The position numbers and the translations under genes were made by a program. From NCBI RefSeq assembly GCF_024345535.1, contig NZ_JAGQBH010000008.1:1-64000 (forward strand): a DNA stretch of 64,000 nucleotides, read 5' to 3'. The stretch is from Cyanobium sp. N.Huapi 1H5 (GTDB lineage Bacteria > Cyanobacteriota > Cyanobacteriia > PCC-6307 > Cyanobiaceae). Below the pieces are notes generated by a model that was not told the DNA's origin, did no database searches, and was given only the letters and a program-made list of their open reading frames with translations. This document shows positions 8,680 through 45,052 of the stretch, one piece after another; positions within the stretch are counted from its first letter, which is position 1, and each line of letters starts with the position of its first letter.

Positions 8680-9013
8680 GGGCTTTCATCCACCATCAAA
8701 GAAAACTCACCAAAACCTAACCCGAACCTTCATCCGACATTCCCCGCTTCCTCTTCTGTAACATCTCTTATTATTTATAGTCTGTACCGTCTGTCTTCCG
8801 GTCTATGCGCCTATCACCGAGGCGTCATGTCGTGTATCGAGGCTTACATCATTCATCCCCGGACTCCATCCATGGGCATACCTGAAGCCTGGGTCCGGGT
8901 GGACGAATCCCCAGGACTGTCTTCCCATCGGGCCATTCCAGCCCCCATGCTTGGGGAGACATTCCGCCGTCCACCCCGGTGACTGCCTGTCCCTCCAGCC
9001 CGCGACGGCCGTC
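8680..9013. promoter_or_regulatory. Divergent intergenic region, no gene seen
   Basis: This 334 bp gap separates the start of the giant gene from the start of the oxoprolinase gene. It contains the most AT-rich stretch of the neighbourhood (about 8695-8795). On the minus strand TATAAATAAT near 8770-8780 could serve as a -10 element for the giant gene, but I see no good -35. No ORF, RNA gene or terminator is convincing. Confidence 0.35.
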
Positions 9014-12000
9014 GTGACCGGGGCCGGCTGGGGCTTCTGGATCGACCGGGGCGGCACCTTCACCGATGTGGTGGCCCGCACGCCCGGGGGCGAGCTGCTG
9101 GTGCGCAAGCGCCTCTCCGATCCGCCGCGCCGGGCCGATGGCACCGCTCCACAGGATCCCGCTGTGGCCGCCCTGCGGGAGCTGCTGGAGCTGGCGCCTG
9201 ACCAGCCCATTCCCTCCGGGCTCGTGGCGGAGCTGCGGCTGGGCACCACCGTGGCCACCAACGCCCTGCTGGAGTGCCAGGGGGCGCCGGTGCTGTTGTT
9301 GGTGACCCGGGGCTTCGCCGACCTGCAGCGCATCGGCGACCAGCACCGCCCCGACCTCTTTGCCCTGGAGATCCGGCGGGCCGAGCCTCCGCCCCTGCGG
9401 GTCATTGAAGTAGGCGGCCGGCTGGCGGCGGATGGGGTGGAACTGGAGCCCCTGCAGCTGGATGCAGTGCTGGAGCACTCCCTGGCCCAGGCCCGCTCCG
9501 ACGGCTTCGGCAGCGTGGCCGTGGCCCTGCTCCACGCCGGCCGTCACCCGTGCCATGAGCAGGCTCTCGGGAGCTGGCTGGCCTCACGGGGCTTCGCCCC
9601 GGTGGTGCTCTCCCACCAGCTCAGCCGCCAGCCCCGGCTGGTGCCCCGCCTCGACACCAGCGTGCTTGAGGCCTCCCTGGGTCCGGTGCTGGGGGCCTAT
9701 CTCGATCAAGTCCATGCCGCCATCGGCGCGGCCATTCCGCTGCGGGTGATGACCTCCGCCGGAGCTCTGCGTGCGCCAGCCCTGCTGCAGGCCAAGGACA
9801 CGATCCTCTCCGGCCCCGCCGGCGGCATGGTGGCGGCCGTCGCGGTGGCGGAGGCGGCCGGATTCGGTGATGGCCCGATCCTCGGCTTCGACATGGGCGG
9901 CACCTCCAGTGACGTCTTCCACTTCGACGGCAGCCGCGGCGAGGCTGCCTGGGAGCGCAGTAGTGAAACGGAGATCGACGGCCTGCGGCTGCTGGCGCCG
10001 ATGCTGCCGATCCACACGGTGGCGGCGGGCGGCGGCTCGGTGCTGCACGTGCAGGACGGACGCCTGCAGGTGGGCCCCCGTTCGGCCGGCGCCAACCCCG
10101 GACCCGCCTGCTATGGCCGCGGTGGGCCCCTGGCGATCACCGACGCCAATCTGCTGCTGGGCCGCCTGCCTGTGAACGCGCTGCCGCGCCTGTTCGGCCC
10201 CGGCGGCGACCAGCCGGCCGATCGGGGGGTGGTGCTCGAGCGCTTCAAGGCCCTGGCCAGCCAGCTGGGGGTGGCGGGTCCAGAGTTGGCGGCCCAGGGG
10301 GCGCTGACGATCGCCATCGAGCGCATGGCCGAGGCGATCCGGCGCATCTCGATCCAGCGGGGCCACGACCTGCGCGGCGCCGTGCTCGTCACCTTCGGCA
10401 GCGCCGGCGGCCAGCTCACCTGCCCCCTGGCCGACGCCCTCGGTCTCACCCGGGTGCTGCTCCATCCCCTGGCCGGGGTGCTCTCGGCCTATGGCATCGG
10501 CCTGGCCCGCCCCTCCCTGCTGCGGGAGCGCACCCTGCGGAAGCCCTTCGAGCCGGCCCTGCTTCCCCAGCTGGAGCGGGAGATCGGGGCGCTGGTGGCC
10601 GAAGCCACCGCCGAGCTGCGCACCAGCGGCGATCTGGCGCCCGGCGAGGCGCCCCGCCGGCAGGCCCGCCTGGAGCTGCGATACCGCGGCAGCGACCAGG
10701 GGCTGGAACTGCCCTGGCCCGCTGCGCCGTCCGAGGGGCTGCTGGCTGAGCTGCGCGCCGGTTTCGAGGCCCGCCACCGGCAGCGCTTCGGCTTCGTGGC
10801 GGCGGACGAGCCGCTGGTGGTGGAGCGGCTTCAGGTGGAGGTGGCCGCCCCGGCCCCCGAGATCCCGGCGGGGGTCGTCCGGGCCGCGGAACTCCCGGAG
10901 GCGGCGGATCCACCCGAGCCCTCGGAATGGGTGCCCCTTTGCCTGGCCGAGGAGCAGGGTGCCGGCGCCGGGATGGTCTGGCGCCAGGTGCCCCTCTGGC
11001 GGCGGGAGCAGCTGGCGGCGGGCCAGCGGATTGCGGGCCCGGCCCTGGTGGTGGAGCCCACGGGCACCACGGTGCTGGAGCCCGGCTGGGGCGGCCGGGT
11101 GCTGGCGGGGGGCGAGCTGCTGCTGGAGCGGCAGGCGCCGCCCGTCGGAGCCTTCCTGCCCACCAGCAGCGACCAGGCGGTGGATCCAGTGCGGCTGGAG
11201 CTCTACAACCACCGTTTTGCCGCCATCGCCGAGCAGATGGGCGAACGGCTGCGCCAGTGCAGTCGTTCGGTAAATATCCGCGAGCGGCTCGACTTCTCCT
11301 GCGCCCTGTTCGATGGCGCCGGCCGGCTGGTGGCCAATGCTCCCCACATCCCCGTGCACCTCGGCTCGATGGGGGACAGCGTCGCCAGCCTGCTGGCCGC
11401 CGTGGCCGCCGGCACCCTGCCGCCCCTGGCGCCGGGCGACGCCTACGCCGCCAACGACCCCTTCGACGGCGGCACCCACCTGCCCGACATCACCGTGATC
11501 ACGCCGGTGTTCGCCCCGGAGGGCGGGGCGGCGCCGCTGCTGTTCGTGGCCTGCCGCGGCCACCACGCCGACGTGGGCGGCCTCACCCCGGGCTCGATGC
11601 CCCCCTTCAGCCGCCGGATTGAGGAGGAGGGGCTGTTGCTGCGCCACGTGCCGCTGCTGCGCCAGGGCCAGTTCGATGGGGCCGCCTGGCGTCAGCGGCT
11701 GGCCGCCGGCCCCCACCCGGTGCGCAACCCCGAGCAGCTGCTGGCCGACCTCCAGGCCCAGGTGGCCGCCAACCGGCTGGGGGAGAGCGAACTGCAGCGG
11801 CTGCTGAGCCGTGATGGCACCGGCGAGGTGAGCGCCTACCTGGGCCACGTGCTGGCCAATGCGGCCGAGGCTGTGCGTGACGCGATCGCCAGCCTCAGGG
11901 ATGGCGACCACACGGTCGAGCTCGACAACGGCAGCCGCATCGTTGTGGCCGTCCGCATCGACCGGGCCGCCCGCCGGGCCCGCATCGACTTCAGCGGCAC

Positions 12001-35522: not shown

Positions 35523-35572
35523 CACCCGAAGTCCACCAAGGCCCCCATTGTCCCCATCCGGGCGACGCTGGA

Positions 35573-36670
35573 TCAGCGGGAGCTGCTGAACAGCTGGTCC
35601 CAGACCCCGTCCTTGCCGAAGAAGGTGGCGTTGATCTTCTCCCAGCCACCGAAGTCGCCGGCCGAGAACAGCTGCTTCACCGGGGCGAAGCGGCCCTTCA
35701 CCCGGCTCCAGACCCCCGGGCTGGCCGGACGGAAGCCTTCCTCGGCGAAGATTTCCTGGGCGGGCTCGCTCTGCAGAAAGGCGGCCAGGGCCTCGGCGGC
35801 CTTGCGGGTGCCCTTGCGATCCACGTTGCGGTCCACAACCGTCACCGGGCCCTCGATGCGGATGTTGACCTCGGGCACGATGAAGGGGGCCTTGAGATCG
35901 CCGCTGCGCTTGGCCAGGATCGCCTCGTTCTCGTAGTTGAGCAGCACGTCGCCCTGTCCGCGCTTCAGGAACACGTCACTGGCCTCGCGGGCGTCCTTGG
36001 GCAGGTTGTCCACGTTGCGGTAAACCGAACTGACGTAGGCCTTGGCCTGGGCCTCGCTGCCGCCGGTCTGGCTGATCGAGCCCCACAGGCCCAGGAAGTT
36101 CCAGCGGGCGCCGCCGGAGGTCTTGGGATTGGCCGTCACCACCGTGACGCCGGGCTTGGCCAGGTCGGCCCAGGTCCGCACCCCTTTGGGGTTGCCGTCG
36201 CGGGTCACGAAGGCCACCACCGAGTGGGTGATGATCGAGCCGCCGGGCAGGTCCGTTTCCCACCCCGGCTGCACCAGGCCCGCTTCCTGGAGCTTGAGCA
36301 CGTCACCGGCCAGGGCGAGGGTGGCCACGTCGGCATCGAGGCCGTCGATGATCGCCCGGGTCTGGGAGCCGGAGCCGCCGTAGCTGGTCTTGACGTTGAT
36401 GGCCTGGCCGGTTCTGGCCTTCCAGTCGGCTTTGAACTTGGGCAGGATCCGGTCATAGGCCCCCTTGGTCACGGCGTAGCTCACCAGCAGCAGCTCCTGG
36501 GGAGCGCCGCCGCCGTCGGCACCGGCACCGCCCTCGGGCCGGGGGCTGCAGCCGGACAGGGCCAGACCCCCCAGCAGGAGGCCGGACATGGCGAGGGGGG
36601 CGGCCACCAGGCCGGGATGCCAGGGGCGGCGAGCGGCTGGCGGGACCGGCGAGGAGAAGGGATGAAGCAC
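35573..36670 (-). CDS. sbpA: Sulfate-binding protein SbpA
   Basis: Periplasmic receptor of the sulfate ABC importer. 365 aa from GTG 36670, followed by a signal segment with a lipobox-like ALSGC. Family motifs: VSYAVTKGAYDRILPKF, TSYGGSGSQTRAI (sulfate-binding loop), ANPKTSGGARWNFLGLWG and VLLNYENEAILA. Upstream the frame is open to 37213, but that lies opposite the Rrf2 gene. Divergent from the Rrf2 regulator, with an inverted repeat in its leader. Confidence 0.92.
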   Translation of the reverse strand: MLHPFSSPVPPAARRPWHPGLVAAPLAMSGLLLGGLALSGCSPRPEGGAGADGGGAPQELLLVSYAVTKGAYDRILPKFKADWKARTGQAINVKTSYGGSGSQTRAIIDGLDADVATLALAGDVLKLQEAGLVQPGWETDLPGGSIITHSVVAFVTRDGNPKGVRTWADLAKPGVTVVTANPKTSGGARWNFLGLWGSISQTGGSEAQAKAYVSSVYRNVDNLPKDAREASDVFLKRGQGDVLLNYENEAILAKRSGDLKAPFIVPEVNIRIEGPVTVVDRNVDRKGTRKAAEALAAFLQSEPAQEIFAEEGFRPASPGVWSRVKGRFAPVKQLFSAGDFGGWEKINATFFGKDGVWDQLFSSSR

Positions 36671-36703
36671 GGTTGTCCGATGGGTGAACTGGTGAAACCT
36701 ATC

Positions 36704-36721
36704 CGTCGCGCCACCGCGACG
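36704..36721 (-). repeat. 7 bp inverted repeat in sbpA leader
   Basis: CGTCGCG (36704-36710) and CGCGACG (36715-36721) are perfect arms with a 4-nt loop, 33 bp before the sbpA start and in the gap shared with the Rrf2 gene. It could be an operator or leader hairpin. GC-rich palindromes are common in this genome, so confidence is modest. Confidence 0.35.
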
Positions 36722-36814
36722 ATGTAGGGCGGATGACATCCCCCCGGTGCCTGGCCGTTGGCTGGTCCGGGGGTGGTGGCTGCCACAATCCCCGTAAGAC
36801 AACCGTGGATTCCC

Positions 36815-37246
36815 TTGGCCTTCAGCGCGAAAACCGGCTACGGCCTCGTCTCGCTCATCGAGCTGGCCGCCATCCATTCCCGCGGCGGCGTGCTGCAGGT
36901 GGCGGAGATCGCCCAGCGCCAGGCCATCCCTGACCGCTACCTGGAGCAGATGCTCGCCAGCCTGCGCCGGGGCCAGATCCTGCGCAGCATCCGCGGGCCG
37001 AAGGGGGGCTACCAGCTGGCCCGGCCGCCGGCCGAGATCCGCGTCGATGACGTGGTGAGCTGTCTGGAGGGGGACATCACGCCGCGGGCCGGCGGCGAGG
37101 GCGCCACCCCGGAATTCGAGGTGCTGGGCCGGCTGGAGGAACGGCTCGAAGAGGCGCGTCGCGCCATCCTCTCGGGCACCACCCTGCAGGACCTGCTGGA
37201 CCAGCGGGATCACCTGGCCCAGGCCCAGGCGATGTACTTCATCTGA
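36815..37246 (+). CDS. Rrf2 family transcriptional regulator
   Basis: 143 aa from a TTG before AFSAKTGYGLVSLIELA. The winged helix (LQVAEIAQRQAIPDRYLEQMLASLRRGQILRSIRGPKGGYQLA, split over residues about 26-70) is intact. Only one cysteine is present, so it cannot bind an Fe-S cluster as IscR or NsrR do; it is nearer the cysteine-metabolism type (CymR-like). It is divergent from sbpA, suggesting control of sulfate uptake. That role is inference. Confidence 0.85.
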   Translation: MAFSAKTGYGLVSLIELAAIHSRGGVLQVAEIAQRQAIPDRYLEQMLASLRRGQILRSIRGPKGGYQLARPPAEIRVDDVVSCLEGDITPRAGGEGATPEFEVLGRLEERLEEARRAILSGTTLQDLLDQRDHLAQAQAMYFI

Positions 37247-37376
37247 GCGGACCGGCCGGATTCAGGGCCGGACCGCGCCGGACCGTTAAATAGACCACAT
37301 TGCCGATGGGGAATGTGAGGTATGGTGCTGGGGTCCCCGCAGGCTCCCCATGTGCTGTTGTCGGCGAATGCCTGTC

Positions 37377-37393
37377 GCCAGCCGAAGGCTGGC
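37377..37393 (+). repeat. Hairpin in the cysR leader
   Basis: GCCAGCC (37377-37383) and GGCTGGC (37387-37393) form a perfect 7 bp stem with a GAA triloop about 50 bp before the CysR-like gene. Not followed by a T-run, so not a terminator. It may be a leader structure. Confidence 0.35.
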
Positions 37394-37443
37394 CGTCCGC
37401 TCTGCCCTGAACCCCCTTACCCCATCGTTTTCCGCCTGCGGCC

Positions 37444-37998
37444 ATGACCACCTCACGTACGCCCCAGACCCTCCGCCTCACGCTCCTGCCCCATGACGTC
37501 CTGCCCGACGGACTTCATTGGAAGATCCAGGACGGCTACATCCGCACCGCCTCCCACGACGAGGAGGGCGAATCCTTCACCCTCGGCCTGTGGGGCCCGG
37601 GTGACTGGGTGACCAACGCCTATTCCACCCTGCGTCCGGTGGAGATCCAGTGCCTGTCCACGGTGGTGGTGGAGCAGGGCCATCCCAGCGAGGCCGAGAT
37701 CCTGGCCTTCCTGCATCACCAGATCCGCAACACCGAAGAGCTGTTCGAGATCAACCGGGTCCGCGGCGCCGAGTCAAGGCTGTTGCGGCTGCTGCGCTGG
37801 ATCGGCCTCCGCTTCGGGCAGGTGAGCAGCCGCGGCTACCGCCTCTCCCTGCGGGACATGAACCTCACCCATCAGGCCCTGGCGGAGATCTGCGGCCTCA
37901 CCCGGGTGACGGTCACCAAGACCCTCAACCATTTCAAGCGCCTCGGCCTGCTGCATCAGGTCAGCGACACCGACCTGATGGTCAGCAGCATCCCCTGA
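37444..37998 (+). CDS. cysR: Crp/Fnr family regulator, CysR-like
   Basis: 184 aa. The N-terminal effector domain is short (residues about 15-85, with ESFTLGLWGPGDWV), and the C-terminal helix-turn-helix is LTHQALAEICGLTRVTVTKTL. It lacks the cAMP-binding residues of Crp. Its position within the sulfate uptake cluster matches CysR, known in Synechococcus elongatus to govern sulfur-starvation genes. Identification rests on position plus family. Confidence 0.78.
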   Translation: MTTSRTPQTLRLTLLPHDVLPDGLHWKIQDGYIRTASHDEEGESFTLGLWGPGDWVTNAYSTLRPVEIQCLSTVVVEQGHPSEAEILAFLHHQIRNTEELFEINRVRGAESRLLRLLRWIGLRFGQVSSRGYRLSLRDMNLTHQALAEICGLTRVTVTKTLNHFKRLGLLHQVSDTDLMVSSIP

Positions 37999-38061
37999 GT
38001 GCGCCGACGCCTTTCATTGGCCCATGCTCAGCGTCCTTTCTGTTCATCAACACCCACCGTC

Positions 38062-38253
38062 ATGGCTGCCCAGTATTTCCGCTCCAGGCTCAATGAGCCC
38101 CATCCCCAGCGCTTCACCCTCGTCTTCCGCAACGGTGAGCTGCTGCGCCACCAGGATCCCCTGGCCGTCGCCCAGTACCTCGCCGATGCCCGTCTGGCGG
38201 AGGTTCATTCCGAACCTCCGCGCCGCCGTGCCGCCACTGCGGTGAGCGACTGA
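38062..38253 (+). CDS. Small protein in sulfate cluster, unknown function
   Basis: 63 aa from ATG 38062 (the frame is open further upstream but those residues are not protein-like). The core FRSRLNEPHPQRFTLVFR suggests a small soluble protein; basic tail at the end. Its TGA (38251-38253) is directly adjacent to the cysA TGA on the other strand (38254-38256), the six bases TGATCA giving both stops. No family recognised. Confidence 0.5.
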   Translation: MAAQYFRSRLNEPHPQRFTLVFRNGELLRHQDPLAVAQYLADARLAEVHSEPPRRRAATAVSD

Positions 38254-39276
38254 TCAGATCGAATAATCCGGTTGAAAGGCGTGGGCCTGGCGGCTGATCA
38301 CATGCAGTCGGTCGCCGGGCTTGAGGTTGGCGTAGTCCACCTCTTCCCGGGGGAACTGGGCCACCACCACTTCTTCGGAGTCGAGCACCAGTTCCGCCTG
38401 CAGGTCGCGGCCCATGTGGGTGAGGCGCCGCAGGCGGGCCGGCACCGTGCCCGGCTGGGGGGTGGCATGCACCTGCACATGGTGGGGGCGCACGAAGATC
38501 CGGCCCTCCGCCGGCAGCGGCGGGACCGCATCGCGCCGCACGGGCAGGGAACCGCTGGGCAGCTCGTTGACCGCGCCCACGAAGCTCATCACGAACGGGG
38601 AGGCGGGATGGTCGTAGATCTCCGCCGGGGAACCGATCTGCTCCACCCGGCCTTCGTTCATGACCACGATCCGATCGGCCACCTCCATGGCCTCCTCCTG
38701 GTCGTGGGTGACGATCACGGTGGTGACGTGCATCTCGTCGTGGAGATTGCGCAGCCAGGCCCGCAGTTCCTTGCGCACCTTGGCATCGAGGGCGCTGAAG
38801 GGTTCATCGAGCAGCAGCACCCGGGGCTGCACCGCCAGGGCGCGGGCCAGGGCCACCCGCTGGCGCTGCCCGCCGGAGAGTTGGGAGGGGTAGCGGTTGC
38901 CGTAGCCCCGCAGGTGCACGAGGTCGAGCAGTTCGTCGACCCGCCGACGGATCGCCTCGGGCTTCCAGCGGCGCAGTTCGAGGCCGAAGGCCACGTTGCG
39001 ACGCACGTTGCGGTGCTTGAAGAGGGCGAAATGCTGGAAGACGAAGCCCACCTGGCGCTCCTGCACCGACCGCTCGGTCGCCTCTTCGCCGGTGATCCAG
39101 ATGCGGCCGGCATCGGCCTCCTCCAGCCCGGCGATCAATCGCAGCAGGGTGCTCTTGCCCGACCCGGAGGGTCCGAGCAGGGCCACCAGGGAACCGCTGT
39201 CCACGTCGACGCTGACGTCGTCGACGGCGCGGAAATCGCCGAAGCTCTTGCTGACGTTGGCGACGCGGATGCCCAT
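38254..39276 (-). CDS. cysA: Sulfate/thiosulfate ABC transporter ATPase CysA
   Basis: 340 aa. Walker A is GPSGSGKST (residues 35-43), the signature is [15 protein letters not shown], Walker B is [12 protein letters not shown] and the H-loop is [13 protein letters not shown]. The C-terminal TOBE-type domain ([14 protein letters not shown]) marks it as the CysA/MalK subgroup. It energises CysT/CysW import. It is divergent from cysT across a 103 bp gap, so it is not in their transcript. Confidence 0.95.
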
Positions 39277-39379
39277 TGAAACGGCCTGGGTGGCTGGGAG
39301 GATCCGACTATACCGGTAAGCGCACCGTCAAACCGTCCTTTAGTCTGACGCCGTTGAAGCGCGCCGTCCCCCTGCCCCG

Positions 39380-40231
39380 ATGACCCCCGCCCTCCTGCGT
39401 CGCTGGCGCCCGCCGACCCTGGCGCTGCCCAGCTGGCCCTGGCGCATCACCTGGACCTACCTGGGCCTGATCCTGTTCCTGCCCCTGGGCGCGATGCTGC
39501 TCAGGGCCGCCGAGGTGGGACCCGTCGGTTTCTGGGAGATGGCCACCACGCCGGAGGCCATCGCCACCTACAAGGTCAGCTTCGGCCTGGCCCTGGTGGC
39601 CAGCGTGATCAACGGTGTCTTCGGGCTGGTGGTGGCCTGGGCGCTGGTGCGCTGCCGCTTTCCTGGCCAGCGCCTGCTCGATGCCCTGATCGATCTGCCC
39701 TTCGCCCTTCCCACCGCCGTCGCCGGCCTGGCCCTCACGGCCGTGTACAGCACCAACGGCTGGCTGGGTCAGCCGCTCAACGAGGCCTTCGGCCTCAAGG
39801 TGGCCTTCGCCGCCCCGGGGGTGACCGTGGCGATGGTGTTCATCTCCCTGCCCTTTGTGGTGCGCACCGTGGAGCCCGTGCTGCGTTCCCTTGAGAAGGA
39901 GCAGGAGGAGGCCTCCTGGTGCCTGGGGGCCACGCCGCTCCAGACCACCCTGCGGGTGGTGCTGCCCCAGCTCCTTCCGGCGATCCTCGGAGGGGTGGCC
40001 CAGGGCTACAGCCGGGCCGTGGGGGAGTACGGCTCGGTGGTGATGATCTCCAGCAACGTGCCCTTCCGCGACCTGATCACCCCCACGCTGATCATCCAGA
40101 AGCTGGAGGAATACGACTTCGACGCCGCCACCGTGATCGGCGCCGTGATGCTGATCTTCTCCCTGCTGAGCCTGCTGGTGATCAACCTGCTGCAGGTGTG
40201 GGGCCAGCGCTACCAGGGCGATGCGGCCTGA
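39380..40231 (+). CDS. cysT: Sulfate ABC transporter permease CysT (CysU)
   Basis: 283 aa, six membrane segments. The EAA coupling loop is EEASWCLGATPLQTTLRVVLP. Membrane motifs YKVSFGLALVASVINGVFGL and GEYGSVVMISSNVPF are typical of CysT. With CysW it forms the sulfate pore. The start ATG lies 103 bp from the divergent cysA start. CysW follows after 69 bp. Confidence 0.94.
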   Translation: MTPALLRRWRPPTLALPSWPWRITWTYLGLILFLPLGAMLLRAAEVGPVGFWEMATTPEAIATYKVSFGLALVASVINGVFGLVVAWALVRCRFPGQRLLDALIDLPFALPTAVAGLALTAVYSTNGWLGQPLNEAFGLKVAFAAPGVTVAMVFISLPFVVRTVEPVLRSLEKEQEEASWCLGATPLQTTLRVVLPQLLPAILGGVAQGYSRAVGEYGSVVMISSNVPFRDLITPTLIIQKLEEYDFDAATVIGAVMLIFSLLSLLVINLLQVWGQRYQGDAA

Positions 40232-40300
40232 TCCCGCCACCTGGCTCCGCCTTCACCCCCTGTCCTGTCCGCCTTCCGTTTCCGCCACCGGCTGTCCGCC

Positions 40301-41200
40301 ATGACCATCGTCGTCCCCACCCTGGAGAGCCCCGCAGCCGTTCGGGCTCCCCGCCCCAGGTCCCGACGCCCGGGCCCTGGCCTGGCCGCGATCCTGATCC
40401 CCCTGGTCGCCTGCCTCTACGTGGGGGTGGTGATCCTGCTGCCGGCCGTGAGCGTGGTGGCCTCCGCCTTCGCCAAGGGGCTGGGCCCCTTCCTGGAGAA
40501 CTTCCAGTCCCACGAACTGATCTCGGCCCTGCGCCTCACCCTGTTCGCCACCGCCGTGGCGGTGCCCTGCAACGTCATCTTCGGCCTGGCCGCGGCCACC
40601 GCCATCGCCCGCCGCCAGTTCCGGGGCAAGGCCCTGCTGCTGAGCGTCATCGACCTGCCCTTCTCGATCTCCCCGGTGGTGGTGGGCCTGATGCTGGTGC
40701 TGCTCTACAGCCCCAGCCATGGCCTGCTGGGGGGTGTCATCGAGAGCCTGGGCTGGAAAATCATCTTCTCCTGGCCGGGGATCGTGCTGGCCACGATCAT
40801 CGTCACCTTCCCCTTCATGGCCCGGGAGGTGATCCCCCTGCTGGAGGAGGAGGGCTGGGAGCAGGAGGAGGCCGCCCGCACCCTCGGCGCCACCAACTGG
40901 CAGGTGTTCTGGAAGGTGACCCTCCCCTCGGTGCGCTGGGCCGCCCTCTACGGCCTGATCCTCACCACGGCCCGGGCCCTGGGGGAATTCGGTGCCGTCG
41001 CGGTGGTCAGCGGCAACATCGAGGGCCTCACCCAGACCCTGCCCCTGTTCGTGGAGGACGCCTACAAGAACTACCAGACCGAGCTGGCCTTCGGGGCGGC
41101 GATGGTGCTGGGGGGCGTGGCGATCGTGTCGCTGCTGCTCAAGCTCCTGGTGGAGCAGCTTCTGGAGCAGGACAAGAAAGCGGCCAGGATCGAGCCCTGA
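40301..41200 (+). CDS. cysW: Sulfate ABC transporter permease CysW
   Basis: 299 aa, six membrane segments after a basic Pro-rich N-terminus (residues 1-30). The EAA loop is EEAARTLGATNWQVFWKVTLP. The GEFGAVAVVSGNIEGLTQTL segment is characteristic of CysW. It pairs with CysT, with CysA for energy and SbpA for substrate delivery. Confidence 0.94.
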   Translation: MTIVVPTLESPAAVRAPRPRSRRPGPGLAAILIPLVACLYVGVVILLPAVSVVASAFAKGLGPFLENFQSHELISALRLTLFATAVAVPCNVIFGLAAATAIARRQFRGKALLLSVIDLPFSISPVVVGLMLVLLYSPSHGLLGGVIESLGWKIIFSWPGIVLATIIVTFPFMAREVIPLLEEEGWEQEEAARTLGATNWQVFWKVTLPSVRWAALYGLILTTARALGEFGAVAVVSGNIEGLTQTLPLFVEDAYKNYQTELAFGAAMVLGGVAIVSLLLKLLVEQLLEQDKKAARIEP

Positions 41201-41271
41201 GCAGCGGCGCCCTGAACCGGGCCGGGCACAGGGCGGTTCCCTAACGTTCGCCCCAGCACGGCGTGAGCGGC

Positions 41272-42090
41272 ATGGGGCTTTGGCAGGACCTACTCGAGGC
41301 CCCCGCCTACTGCATCAATCTCGAGCGCCGTCCCGATCGCCGCGACGGGCTGCTCGAGCGCCTGGGGGAAGCCGGCTTCACCCGGGTCTCGATCTGGCCC
41401 GCCGTGGATGCCCGATCGGAGAATCTCGAGGCCCTGTTCGAGCGCCACGGCCTGGGTCGGCCGATGGATGTCGATCGCTTCCTGGCCCGTCGCGGCTCCC
41501 AGGGGTCCCTGCTCTCCCACCTGGGCCTCCTGGCCCATGCCATCGAGCAGGATCTGCCCCTGCTGCACATCTTTGAGGACGACGTCTTCTTCCCGCCCAT
41601 CTGGGCGAGCCAGGCCAGGGCCTTCCATGACGCCACCCCTGACGACTGGGACCTGCTGTTTCTCGGTTCCCAGATTCTCTACAAGCATCTGCCGACGCCC
41701 AGTGTCTTCCGCTTTCTCGAGCGCCATCCCCGTCTGAGGTCGCTCTCGAGCCGCCTGGTGCCTTGGCCGACGCCGATCCTGCAGGACATCGTGACCTGCC
41801 CGGTGTACTGCACCCACGCCTATACCCTCACCCAGGCCGGATGTCGTCAGCTCTATGGCTGGCTCACCGGCCAGCCGGTGGTCTACGGCTATGACTACAT
41901 GATCTGCGACGGGATGCGCCAATCCCCCCGCGTCAGTCCCTTCCCGCTCAAGTGGTATGCATGGAACAGCCTGCGGCTGTGTCCCGATCCGGCCTGTCGC
42001 GGCACCGATCCGGCCATCACCCAGCGCAACCGGGGTCTGGTGTTCCAGCTGGAGGAGGACGGCCCGGGGGTGGTGGGAGACAAGTTATGA
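41272..42090 (+). CDS. Family 25 glycosyltransferase
   Basis: 272 aa from ATG 41272 (GTG 41263 is in frame). The N-terminal INLERRPDRRDGLLERL and HIFEDDVFF (acidic metal-binding motif) identify GT25, a family that adds galactose or other sugars to lipooligosaccharide. TCPVYCTHAYTLTQAGCRQL follows as usual. It converges with glf by 6 bp overlap, and UDP-galactofuranose from Glf could feed surface glycan synthesis, though direct coupling is inference. Confidence 0.85.
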   Translation: MGLWQDLLEAPAYCINLERRPDRRDGLLERLGEAGFTRVSIWPAVDARSENLEALFERHGLGRPMDVDRFLARRGSQGSLLSHLGLLAHAIEQDLPLLHIFEDDVFFPPIWASQARAFHDATPDDWDLLFLGSQILYKHLPTPSVFRFLERHPRLRSLSSRLVPWPTPILQDIVTCPVYCTHAYTLTQAGCRQLYGWLTGQPVVYGYDYMICDGMRQSPRVSPFPLKWYAWNSLRLCPDPACRGTDPAITQRNRGLVFQLEEDGPGVVGDKL

Positions 42091-43245
42091 GAGGCTGAGG
42101 CGAAAGGCCTCGGGAAAGATGGGCCTGGGTTGTCCTGACGCGAGTGCGGCAATGAATTCCCTTGCCAGGGAAAGGGACTCGGCGATCACCTGGTGCATGT
42201 CCATGTATTTGTACAGCCCAAGCCGGCCCATGAAGCTGGTCTTGTCGGTCTGCAGGCAATCGCCCAGATAACCGTGCATCAGGGCCTTGTCGGCCGCCAG
42301 GCGCTTGGGGTAATAGGGCTCATCCTGGAGGCCCGTTTCCTTGCTGTATTCGGTGAACACGATGGTTTTCTCGTGCTGCTTCCAGTATTCGTAATGCTTG
42401 TGCTCCCTGCGGCGGGTGAAGCCCACATCCAGCGAGGGATAGTTGATTCCGGGATGGCCCAGGGCATCCCCTGTCTCGATCTGCCGCTCCCAGAACACGG
42501 TGCGATAGCCGAGCCGGCCCCGCCGGTGGCCGAAGAAGCCATCGAGGGGGCCTGAGTAGAACACGTGGTCATAGGTCTGGCCATCGGCGGGTTGCCATCG
42601 GTGGTTCAGGCTCAGGGAGATGCGGGGATGGTCGAGGAGCCGCTCGAAGATGGCGGTGTAGCCATCCCTGGGGATGCCCTGGTAAATCGAGGCGTAGTAG
42701 TTGTCGTTGTAGTTGAAGCGCAACGGCAACCGCTTGAGCACGGAGGCCGGGATCTGCTGCGGCTCGCAGCCCCAGTGTTTCTTCGTGTAGCCATGGAAAA
42801 ACGCCCGGTAGAGCTCATCGCCCATGAAGTGCAGCGCCTGTTCTTCGAAGTTCTGAGGTTGTTCGATGTCATGGCGCCGGATGGAGTCGACGAACAGTCT
42901 GGCCTCCGATGGTGAGAACTTCTCGCCGAAGTACTGGTTGATGGTATGAAGATTGACGGGCAGGCTGAAGATTCCCTTGTCGATGCTGGCCTTGGGACGG
43001 TTGATGAACGGCATCATCTCCGTGAAGCGCTGCACGTAGTTCCAGACGTTCAGATCGCTCGTGTGAAAAATATGGGCGCCGTAGGTATGCACGGTGATGC
43101 CCGTTTCCTGTTCCTTGTGGGTGTGGCAGTTGCCGCCGATGTGATCCCTCGCTTCAACCACATCAATCTGGTGATCGGTGTGATCGGCAAGCTCCCTGGC
43201 CAGAACGGCGCCGGCGAAGCCGGATCCAACCACAAGAAAACGCAT
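42085..43245 (-). CDS. glf: UDP-galactopyranose mutase
   Basis: Flavoenzyme converting UDP-galactopyranose to UDP-galactofuranose. 386 aa. FAD motif VVGSGFAGAVLAREL at the start, then GGNCHTH and TYGAHIFHTSD, YTKKHWGCEP and LPLRFNYNDNYY of the active site, and the conserved arginine region near GRLGYRTVFWE. Full-length and well conserved. Genes for galactofuranose transfer are not seen except the adjoining GT25. Confidence 0.96.
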   Translation of the reverse strand: MRFLVVGSGFAGAVLARELADHTDHQIDVVEARDHIGGNCHTHKEQETGITVHTYGAHIFHTSDLNVWNYVQRFTEMMPFINRPKASIDKGIFSLPVNLHTINQYFGEKFSPSEARLFVDSIRRHDIEQPQNFEEQALHFMGDELYRAFFHGYTKKHWGCEPQQIPASVLKRLPLRFNYNDNYYASIYQGIPRDGYTAIFERLLDHPRISLSLNHRWQPADGQTYDHVFYSGPLDGFFGHRRGRLGYRTVFWERQIETGDALGHPGINYPSLDVGFTRRREHKHYEYWKQHEKTIVFTEYSKETGLQDEPYYPKRLAADKALMHGYLGDCLQTDKTSFMGRLGLYKYMDMHQVIAESLSLAREFIAALASGQPRPIFPEAFRLSLS

Positions 43246-43310
43246 GACGGAACAGGAGAAGGGCGCTGACGAAACTCGGCTGGACGGCTGGGGCTGGCCG
43301 TGGAAGCCGT

Positions 43311-44102
43311 TCAGAATTCGATGCGATCGGGGAGTCTCGATTCGATGAAATCCCGGTAGTCGTCCAGGCGGGTTTCGGGTCGGATCTCGATGGATTTTGA
43401 GGCCGTGTCGTAGTGGCGGAAACGCTTCATGATGCCGTTGAAGTGCTGTTCATCGCTGGCATCCATGTAGTCGACGGGGTTGGTGTCCTTGAGGCCGTGG
43501 TAGCGGATCGTCCAGCTGAGGTGGGGCGGCAGAAAGGAGCGGAACCGCAGGTAGCCGAATTCACAGTGGTTCCACTGGCAGATGTGCTGGTCGAGGCCGG
43601 TCCTGGCCCTCGGCGTGAGGATGGCATTGGTGCCCACCACGTTGGCCGGGTCTTCGTCGGTAAGCAGCAGCAGCTTGCCGAGGTCATGGAGGAGGGCCAG
43701 CAGCAGGAGATCGTCGTCGAGAACGCCATCGCTGACCATCGCCTCGATCATCTGCAGGCTGTGGGTCAGCTGGCTGGCACAGCCCAGCCGGTTGTCCGTC
43801 GGATCCAGGCACTCCCCCAGCATCCGGAACAGATCCATCGGGCGGAGGCTGCCGAAGACCGGCGTCCGATACCGGTCGTTGAGGGCCTCTACATCGGCGA
43901 TCGACTGCTGGTCATGGCGATCGAGGATCTGGCGCTGCAGGGTCCGCTGGCGCTCGGCGGCCCGGTGGGCGGCCGAGCCGGGGGCATCAAGCTTGACCAG
44001 TCCGAGCCCGGCCGCGGCCAGCCCCTGTTCCAGTCCGCGTCTGGCCCGTCCTTTCAGCCGGGGCACCAGGTGGCTCGGCAGCAGCGAAGGCGAGAACAGC
44101 AA
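43311..44102 (-). CDS. HD-fold diiron protein, myo-inositol oxygenase-like
   Basis: 263 aa, near the MIOX length. Six metal ligands of MIOX have apparent counterparts: His114 (THSLQ), His139 and Asp140 (LLHDLGK), His179 (WNHCEF), His202 (IRYHG) and Asp232 (RHYDTASK); the substrate-side lysine Lys143 is also kept. Segments before and after (LDPTDN, VVGTNAI) fit the MIOX order. The family oxidises C-C or C-P bonds using a diiron centre. The substrate here is unknown; the MIOX substrate-pocket serine after His202 is Gly. The start, TTG 44102, is uncertain. Confidence 0.65.
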   Translation of the reverse strand: MLFSPSLLPSHLVPRLKGRARRGLEQGLAAAGLGLVKLDAPGSAAHRAAERQRTLQRQILDRHDQQSIADVEALNDRYRTPVFGSLRPMDLFRMLGECLDPTDNRLGCASQLTHSLQMIEAMVSDGVLDDDLLLLALLHDLGKLLLLTDEDPANVVGTNAILTPRARTGLDQHICQWNHCEFGYLRFRSFLPPHLSWTIRYHGLKDTNPVDYMDASDEQHFNGIMKRFRHYDTASKSIEIRPETRLDDYRDFIESRLPDRIEF

Positions 44103-44131
44103 GGTGGCCGCTGCAGCGGGTCCGGGGCAGC

Positions 44132-45052
44132 CTATCGAGGCCGATGGGCGGCGTCTTCCGCACAGCTCCCCGGCGCCTCGATCTGGAGTGTGCTGTGGGT
44201 GATGCCCAGCTGGGCGAGGCGCTGCTGGGCGAGGGAGAGCAGCTCCCCATCCAGCGGGCCATCACCGCGGCCCACCAGATGGGCCGTCAGGGCGGTGCGG
44301 GAGGTGCTCATGCCCCAGACGTGCAGATGGTGGACGTTCTCCACGCCGGGAAGGGCGCGAAGGGCCGCCTCCACCTCGGCCAGGTCAATGCCCCGCGGCA
44401 CGGCGTCGAGGCTGGCGCTGAGGGCTTCCCCCAGCAGTTCCCAGCCGCTCCAGGCCACCGCCAGCCCCACGCCGATGGCGGTGGCCGCATCCAGCCACAG
44501 CCAGCCCACCAGCCCCACCAGCACGGCGCTGACCAGCACCGCGGCCGAGACGGCGGCATCGGTGAGCAGGTGCACCACCGCCGCCCGCCGGTTCAGATCG
44601 TGGTGGTGGCCGGTGCCGAACAGCCGGGCCGACAGCAGGTTGACCACGATGCCGGCCGCCGCCGCCCAGGCCACCGGGCCACTGACCACCGGCACCGGAT
44701 CCAGCAGCCGCTGCACCCCCTCGACGATCACCACTCCGGCCGCCATCAGGATCAGGGCCGCGTTCATCAGCGAGGCCAGCTGGGTGCTGCGGCCGAAGCC
44801 GTAGGTGAAGCGGGCCGTGGCCGGCCGGGCGCTGAGTCGTTCGGCCCCCCAGCCGAACAGCAGGCCCGCCACGTCACCGAGGTTGTGGATCGCATCGCCG
44901 ATCAGGGCCAGGGACCCGAAGCCGATGCCGATCGCCAGCTGCAGCCCCGAGAGGGCGCTGTTCAGGAGCACACCCCAGAAGAAGGCCCGGGGCGAACCCT
45001 GGCGGTGCGGATGCCCGTGTTCGTGCCCGTGCTTGTGCGAATGGGACGCCAT
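44132..45052 (-). CDS. Cation diffusion facilitator (zinc-type exporter)
   Basis: 306 aa, six membrane segments. His-rich N-terminus (HSHKHGHEHGHPH), TM2 metal site LIGDAIHNLGDV, TM5 site HLLTDAAVS, and a cytoplasmic domain with VHHLHVWG. Residues H and D of both sites are intact, as in CzcD/ZntA-like CDF exporters of Zn2+ or similar metals. Divergent from sqr across 240 bp. Confidence 0.9.
   Translation of the reverse strand: MASHSHKHGHEHGHPHRQGSPRAFFWGVLLNSALSGLQLAIGIGFGSLALIGDAIHNLGDVAGLLFGWGAERLSARPATARFTYGFGRSTQLASLMNAALILMAAGVVIVEGVQRLLDPVPVVSGPVAWAAAAGIVVNLLSARLFGTGHHHDLNRRAAVVHLLTDAAVSAAVLVSAVLVGLVGWLWLDAATAIGVGLAVAWSGWELLGEALSASLDAVPRGIDLAEVEAALRALPGVENVHHLHVWGMSTSRTALTAHLVGRGDGPLDGELLSLAQQRLAQLGITHSTLQIEAPGSCAEDAAHRPR

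Follow-up and report, generated by a model that had tools for sequence, protein, structure and literature searches.

The window, that is, the whole stretch of 64,000 nucleotides of Cyanobium sp. N.Huapi 1H5 DNA that was analysed, carries at positions 43311–44102 (minus strand) an open frame of 263 residues, which begins with a TTG codon and encodes an HD-domain protein resembling myo-inositol oxygenase (MIOX). Downstream of it on the same strand, after a gap of 65 bp, comes a UDP-galactopyranose mutase gene (UGM-A, 42085–43245), whose product scores 200.9 bits against Pfam GLF (cut-off 26.3) and 290.4 bits against NCBIfam TIGR00031, slightly below the cut-off of 303.75, and has its nearest solved structures in the UGM entries 3gf4 and 2bi7 (E ~1e-124). 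UGM-A meets tail to tail, with an overlap of 6 bp, a plus-strand gene for a glycosyltransferase family 25 protein (GT25-A, 41263–42090; Pfam Glyco_transf_25, 36 bits, cut-off 24). The three genes sit between two convergent neighbours and form a cassette (41201–44131) that runs from the stop of one to the stop of the other: on the left a plus-strand sulfate ABC permease gene (40301–41200), which we take to be cysW-like, and on the right a minus-strand cation-efflux (CDF) gene (44132–45052; Pfam Cation_efflux, 125.2 bits), separated from the start of the MIOX-like gene by 29 bp and found both with and without the cassette. A scan for promoters and terminators gave nothing above shuffled sequences.

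The start codon is credible, since the TTG is identical in all six genomes that carry the gene (6/6) and since the copy in one of these, G003, has an in-frame TGA upstream of it, separated from it by three codons. The 15 pairwise comparisons among the six carriers give dN/dS values of 0.11–0.34, and the frame is under purifying selection.

Family membership and the candidate metal site

MIOX (PF05153) is the sole Pfam family over its cut-off in the protein, at 49.5 bits (E 5.7e-13; gathering cut-off 25), which, together with the aligned ligands described below, confirms the MIOX-like protein that the first-pass annotation had placed at this locus. The same annotation had proposed a search with both MIOX and PhnZ profiles, and only the first of these fits: against TIGR03276, the NCBIfam phosphonate HD oxygenase, the protein scores 17.6 bits (cut-off 214.6), similar to the 18.0 bits of a true cyanobacterial MIOX. 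Within the PDB, the top matches of a family profile are human and mouse MIOX (E 3.7e-10 and 1.7e-9), in two separate stretches before and after a loop, and the stretch 165–257 is outside the HD motif. Alignment of the family with two cyanobacterial MIOX proteins by hhalign gives a probability of 98.4 over 177 columns. Many weak PDB matches to PPR repeats, which repeat residues 105–145, were judged spurious.

In the alignment, residues H98, H123, D124, H194, H220 and D253 of MIOX (mouse numbering) correspond to H114, H139, D140, H179, H202 and D232, and the MIOX lysines K127 and K257 correspond to K143 and K236. The first-pass annotation had named these six ligands and K143, and all were found where it put them; K236 is a marker that it lacked. 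The H...HD...H...H...D set is complete in six of the seven family members. HDxxK is common among HD hydrolases, so that K143 alone is weak evidence for a MIOX-type protein, and K236, the counterpart of Lys257, is the better sign.

Other features of MIOX are only partly retained. In MIOX the lid has the salt-bridge pairs D85/K127, D88/K257 and D92/R39 (PMC2584100). The residues of the first two pairs have aligned counterparts in D100/K143 and D103/K236, with a one-residue gap before the first histidine, and those of the third do not, the D92 position being occupied by G107 and R39 being unplaceable. The loop is not of full length either: about 30 columns are absent between G157 and the third histidine, and this shortening would fit a larger substrate. 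Positions D142 and S221 of MIOX, which we take to contact inositol, hold T158 and G203. The changed pocket serine reported in the first-pass annotation therefore stands for the window's protein, with its Gly203, and does not extend to an actinobacterial relative (L005), where the serine is retained.

These differences bear on the possibility of a true myo-inositol oxygenase, one that would convert scavenged inositol to glucuronate for a glycan. The Pfam match is over its cut-off, and surface glycans often contain uronic acids; the replacement of both pocket residues, the missing loop and an identity of 26% to the two cyanobacterial MIOX proteins argue against it, as does the lack of any match to the inositol-1-phosphate synthase family (PF01658) in the window's own genome, in a search in which 6/14 control genomes were positive. 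For the one gene family that it covered, this search agrees with the first-pass annotation, which saw no inositol genes nearby, and inositol synthesis in this genome was rejected on the same result. Taken together, these observations make a true MIOX quite improbable.

The protein could also use its HD scaffold for hydrolysis, as a metal-dependent phosphohydrolase or phosphodiesterase that acts for example on a sugar nucleotide or a lipid-linked sugar phosphate of the putative glycan pathway, a reading to which we assign a minor but real probability. Apart from the HDxxK motif that it would share with such enzymes, it has a weak match to Pfam HDOD, which at 20.9 bits is under its cut-off of 22.9 whereas MIOX is well over its own, and HD itself is unlisted at E up to 1. 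Among the members of the family alignment, a Pfam match at E of 0.01 or better is found for MIOX in 7/7, for HDOD in 5/7 and for HD in 1/7. Hydrolases are the largest HD group, according to a 2020 review (PMC8177086). Against a hydrolase stands the C-terminal half of the protein, which is MIOX-like and includes D232 and K236.

The predicted fold points in the same direction, within limits. An AlphaFold run on the seven family rows alone reached a pLDDT of 40.6, and one on six family rows plus two true MIOX rows a moderate 63.7 (pTM 0.56), with values below 50 at residues 1–21, 74–82, 99–106 (the lid) and 148–176 (the short loop). Because the two MIOX rows pull the model towards MIOX, its match to that fold is partly circular. 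The first seven rows returned by Foldseek consist only of MIOX, PhnZ and TmpB chains, at E values from 1.1e-3 to 1.5e-2, with no match at 0.001 or below. VIA-align also returned these three proteins in all of its first seven rows (Z 10.2–11.6 over 133–168 residues, rmsd 3.1–4.0), followed by a row at Z 8.4, and its output warns that Z values under about 13 can arise by chance for helical folds. In both lists the oxygenases come ahead of any hydrolase structure, which further weakens the phosphohydrolase reading; the absence of a family from such lists does not exclude that family. A metal site of MIOX type is supported by the aligned residues, and the fold agrees at moderate model confidence.

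PhnZ and TmpB are among those first seven fold matches, and PhnZ comes first by Z in VIA-align, tied with MIOX, which is what a phosphonate oxygenase of the PhnZ/TmpB type would lead one to expect. The sequence speaks otherwise: a scan of the whole protein found no YxxE motif, its TIGR03276 score does not exceed that of a true MIOX, and none of the three cassette genes encodes a 2-oxoglutarate dioxygenase that could serve as partner. On these three grounds a phosphonate substrate was rejected, and an enzyme of this type is considered highly improbable.

A pair of genes that does resemble a phosphonate system was encountered elsewhere in the same taxonomic family. In two small genomes (1.6–1.7 Mb) the MIOX search matches a short HD protein (L014, L015), and at L014:713-2052 (plus strand) this protein has a PhyH dioxygenase as its neighbour. 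The two look like hydroxymethylphosphonate dioxygenase and methylphosphonate hydroxylase, at 213.8 and 219.9 bits, below the respective cut-offs of 300 and 500.

A natural copy of the MIOX-like gene without the metal site was found in one carrier, G002, at L010:1501-2253 (minus strand; G002:C55). H139, D140 and K143 have been lost through an in-frame deletion of 36 bases that is flanked by CTG repeats, and an asparagine replaces D232; the frame is otherwise open, and so are those of the UGM and GT25 genes beside it. The dN/dS of this copy (0.16–0.24) is not raised, so the loss looks recent, or else the protein is useful without the metal, and since the neighbouring genes stay open the metal site can be dispensed with in some cases. 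This copy counts against the oxygenase reading that is preferred below, and it favours a non-catalytic or decaying HD protein that is carried as a passenger in the cassette. We consider the passenger reading unlikely, given the low dN/dS in all 15 pairs and the persistence of the six ligands in every other family member, one of which is only 47% identical.

Presence, absence and history of the cassette

The first-pass annotation regarded the gene as unexpected in a picocyanobacterium, and its distribution bears this out: it is present in 6/400 genomes of the family. In a set of 60 relatives the same number of genomes, the window's included, carry it, all of them within the 37 of the same genus. 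Orthologues of UGM-A at 83% identity or more and of GT25-A at 78% or more occur in the same 6/60 genomes only, and the co-occurrence of the three close orthologues has a Fisher p of 2e-8, uncorrected for shared ancestry. The restriction to carriers is limited to close orthologues, since looser relatives exist elsewhere: other UGM sequences, mostly 36–43% identical, are found in 25/37 genomes of the genus (E under 1e-20), and GT25 homologues at 42–49% identity in six genomes, three of which are carriers.

The three genes share one insertion site. Twenty genomes were searched for cysW and SQR, and ten site regions were read, seven from non-carriers and three from carriers, eight further non-carriers being left out of this reading (G012, G014, G019, G020, G026, G027, G029 and G035). 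In 7/7 of the non-carriers fetched the cassette is missing as one block and the site is empty, with the cysW orthologue and the CDF gene lying tail to tail and 2–23 bases between the matched ends. Among closely related freshwater picocyanobacteria the three genes occur either together or not at all.

The left side differs in the carriers G002 and G011. Both lack at this site the counterpart of window positions 35563–41200 at least, a block with the cysT/cysW-like transporter genes, so that their cassette abuts other genes there, and a search of the two genomes gave no close cysW (G011 being 85% complete). In G003 an extra ORF of 339 residues lies between cysW and GT25 (L104:2483-3502, plus strand); it has no Pfam, NCBIfam or PDB match, and its N-terminus contains what we presume to be a sulfotransferase-like motif.

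Synonymous divergence between G003 and the window is 0.84, 1.0 and 0.97 for the three cassette genes, compared with 0.32 for CDF and 0.22 for SQR; the dS of the cassette genes is 2.7–4.5 times that of the right flank. This shared elevation indicates that the three genes have one history, unlike that of the right flank, and the contrast could come from exchange of the cassette or from recombination in the flank. On the flank trees the carriers are scattered among the non-carriers and do not form a single clade. None of the forks of the SQR tree is well supported, and the CDF tree forces at least two changes. Shuffling the carrier labels gave an equally good result in 236 and 218 of 500 trials on the SQR and CDF trees, and the carriers are accordingly not clustered on them.

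A scan of genome contigs yielded at least four loci with relatives of the MIOX-like protein. Among 292 cyanobacterial genomes across the phylum, three have a MIOX match over the cut-off, namely the window's and two with full MIOX proteins. In Actinomycetota, 1/346 genomes has a long relative (G338, locus L005, aligned over residues 72–263) and three more have short matches that do not exceed 25 bits; a Pfam MIOX search of that phylum put one other genome, G622, over the cut-off (25.7 bits, over 49 positions only). The frame of the L005 relative shares an ATGA overlap with the end of the ORF before it, in which Pfam finds no family (8875-9792 and 9789-10558, plus strand). No relative was reported from plasmids, phages (E 1e-5) or IMG/VR, and a viral or plasmid origin was rejected on this basis. 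Viral contigs searched for further MIOX sequences gave none. Plasmids supplied three MIOX genes, which entered a single alignment; a divergent MIOX on a Catenovulum adriaticum plasmid (L113:4962-5945, plus strand), 35% identical to the L011 protein and with a long insert, lies among polysaccharide-degradation genes.

Candidate substrate and comparison with known HD-domain oxygenases

Two of the three genes act on sugars, and the cassette comes and goes as a whole, which makes a cell-surface sugar a likely substrate; the joint inheritance of neighbours does not prove one pathway. The MIOX-like protein probably oxidises such a sugar rather than inositol. The first-pass annotation had guessed at either a cell-surface sugar or a phosphonate, and of the two the UGM and GT25 cassette favours the sugar. 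The reading that we prefer, tentatively and at somewhat less than even chances, is that of a diiron oxygenase with an HD domain, a divergent offshoot of the MIOX lineage, that tailors a surface glycan together with UGM and GT25. An association of an inositol oxygenase with UDP-galactopyranose mutase was not found described in the literature, in a search over the titles and abstract openings of a mostly open-access collection.

For this tailoring oxygenase a mechanism can be proposed. UGM would convert UDP-galactopyranose to UDP-galactofuranose and, with GT25 and the oxygenase, would make up an exchangeable surface-glycan cassette. The substrate would be a hydroxylated sugar of the glycan that uses the mutase's product, bound at one presumed iron, with O2 at the other. 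Four-electron chemistry of the MIOX/PhnZ kind would then cleave the C–C bond beside a hydroxyl and leave the glycan, or a precursor of it, with an acidic group. As an example, the exocyclic C5–C6 diol of galactofuranose could be the target, which would yield a pentofuranuronic acid. The full version of this proposal, a mixed-valent diiron HD oxygenase that cleaves a C–C bond of the furanosyl sugar made by UGM and is gained, lost and swapped within a three-gene surface cassette, is a speculative one that we think rather improbable as a whole. If true, an HD oxygenase with a shortened loop and sugar-metabolism partners would represent a testable new substrate class. Since some close relatives have the cassette and others do not, their glycans could be compared directly, and the G002 copy without the metal site offers a built-in natural control.

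The characterised HD-domain oxygenases treated in the 2020 review are MIOX, PhnZ and TmpB; in such enzymes one iron takes up the substrate and the other O2, and a C–C or C–P bond is broken in a four-electron oxidation that needs no external reductant (PMC8177086). NCBIfam lists a further PhnZ-type enzyme, hydroxymethylphosphonate dioxygenase. The MIOX-like protein has the order of ligands of PhnZ and TmpB and, as far as the model can tell, their fold; it differs in having neither the YxxE loop nor a 2-oxoglutarate partner in the cassette.

With mammalian MIOX (2HUO, 2IBN) the protein shares the six ligands, the equivalents of Lys127 and Lys257 and those of the lid residues Asp85 and Asp88, and the moderate-confidence model superposes on it over residues 79–263 (Z 11.5, rmsd 3.7, 168 residues). 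It departs from mammalian MIOX at the Asp142 and Ser221 positions, in the glycine at Asp92, in the missing loop residues and in its first 60 residues, which are unaligned.

The two cyanobacterial MIOX proteins belong to the same phylum and the same Pfam family, and are unlike the window's protein not only in identity but also in Pfam score (364 bits versus 49.5) and in having no UGM beside them. In two large cyanobacterial genomes they are encoded, at full length, at L011:1498-2394 and L012:1498-2394 (minus strand), near an ORF that we presume to be gluconate kinase-like. This neighbourhood resembles the hrm locus of symbiotic Nostoc, with hrmE and hrmK (PMC5987646), and these proteins are probably HrmE.

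The actinobacterial relative L005, from a metagenome-assembled genome, differs in the serine at the S221 position, in its neighbours and in a frame that, in that assembly, is broken in the N-terminal third. Neither the window's UGM nor its GT25 finds a match on the 11.3 kb of contig that were searched, which counts against the preferred glycan reading, and capsule-type genes (PGA_cap and polysaccharide pyruvyl transferase) lie within 7 kb. At 47% identity, it has in common with the window's protein the six ligands, both lysines, the DPTD lid and the short loop.
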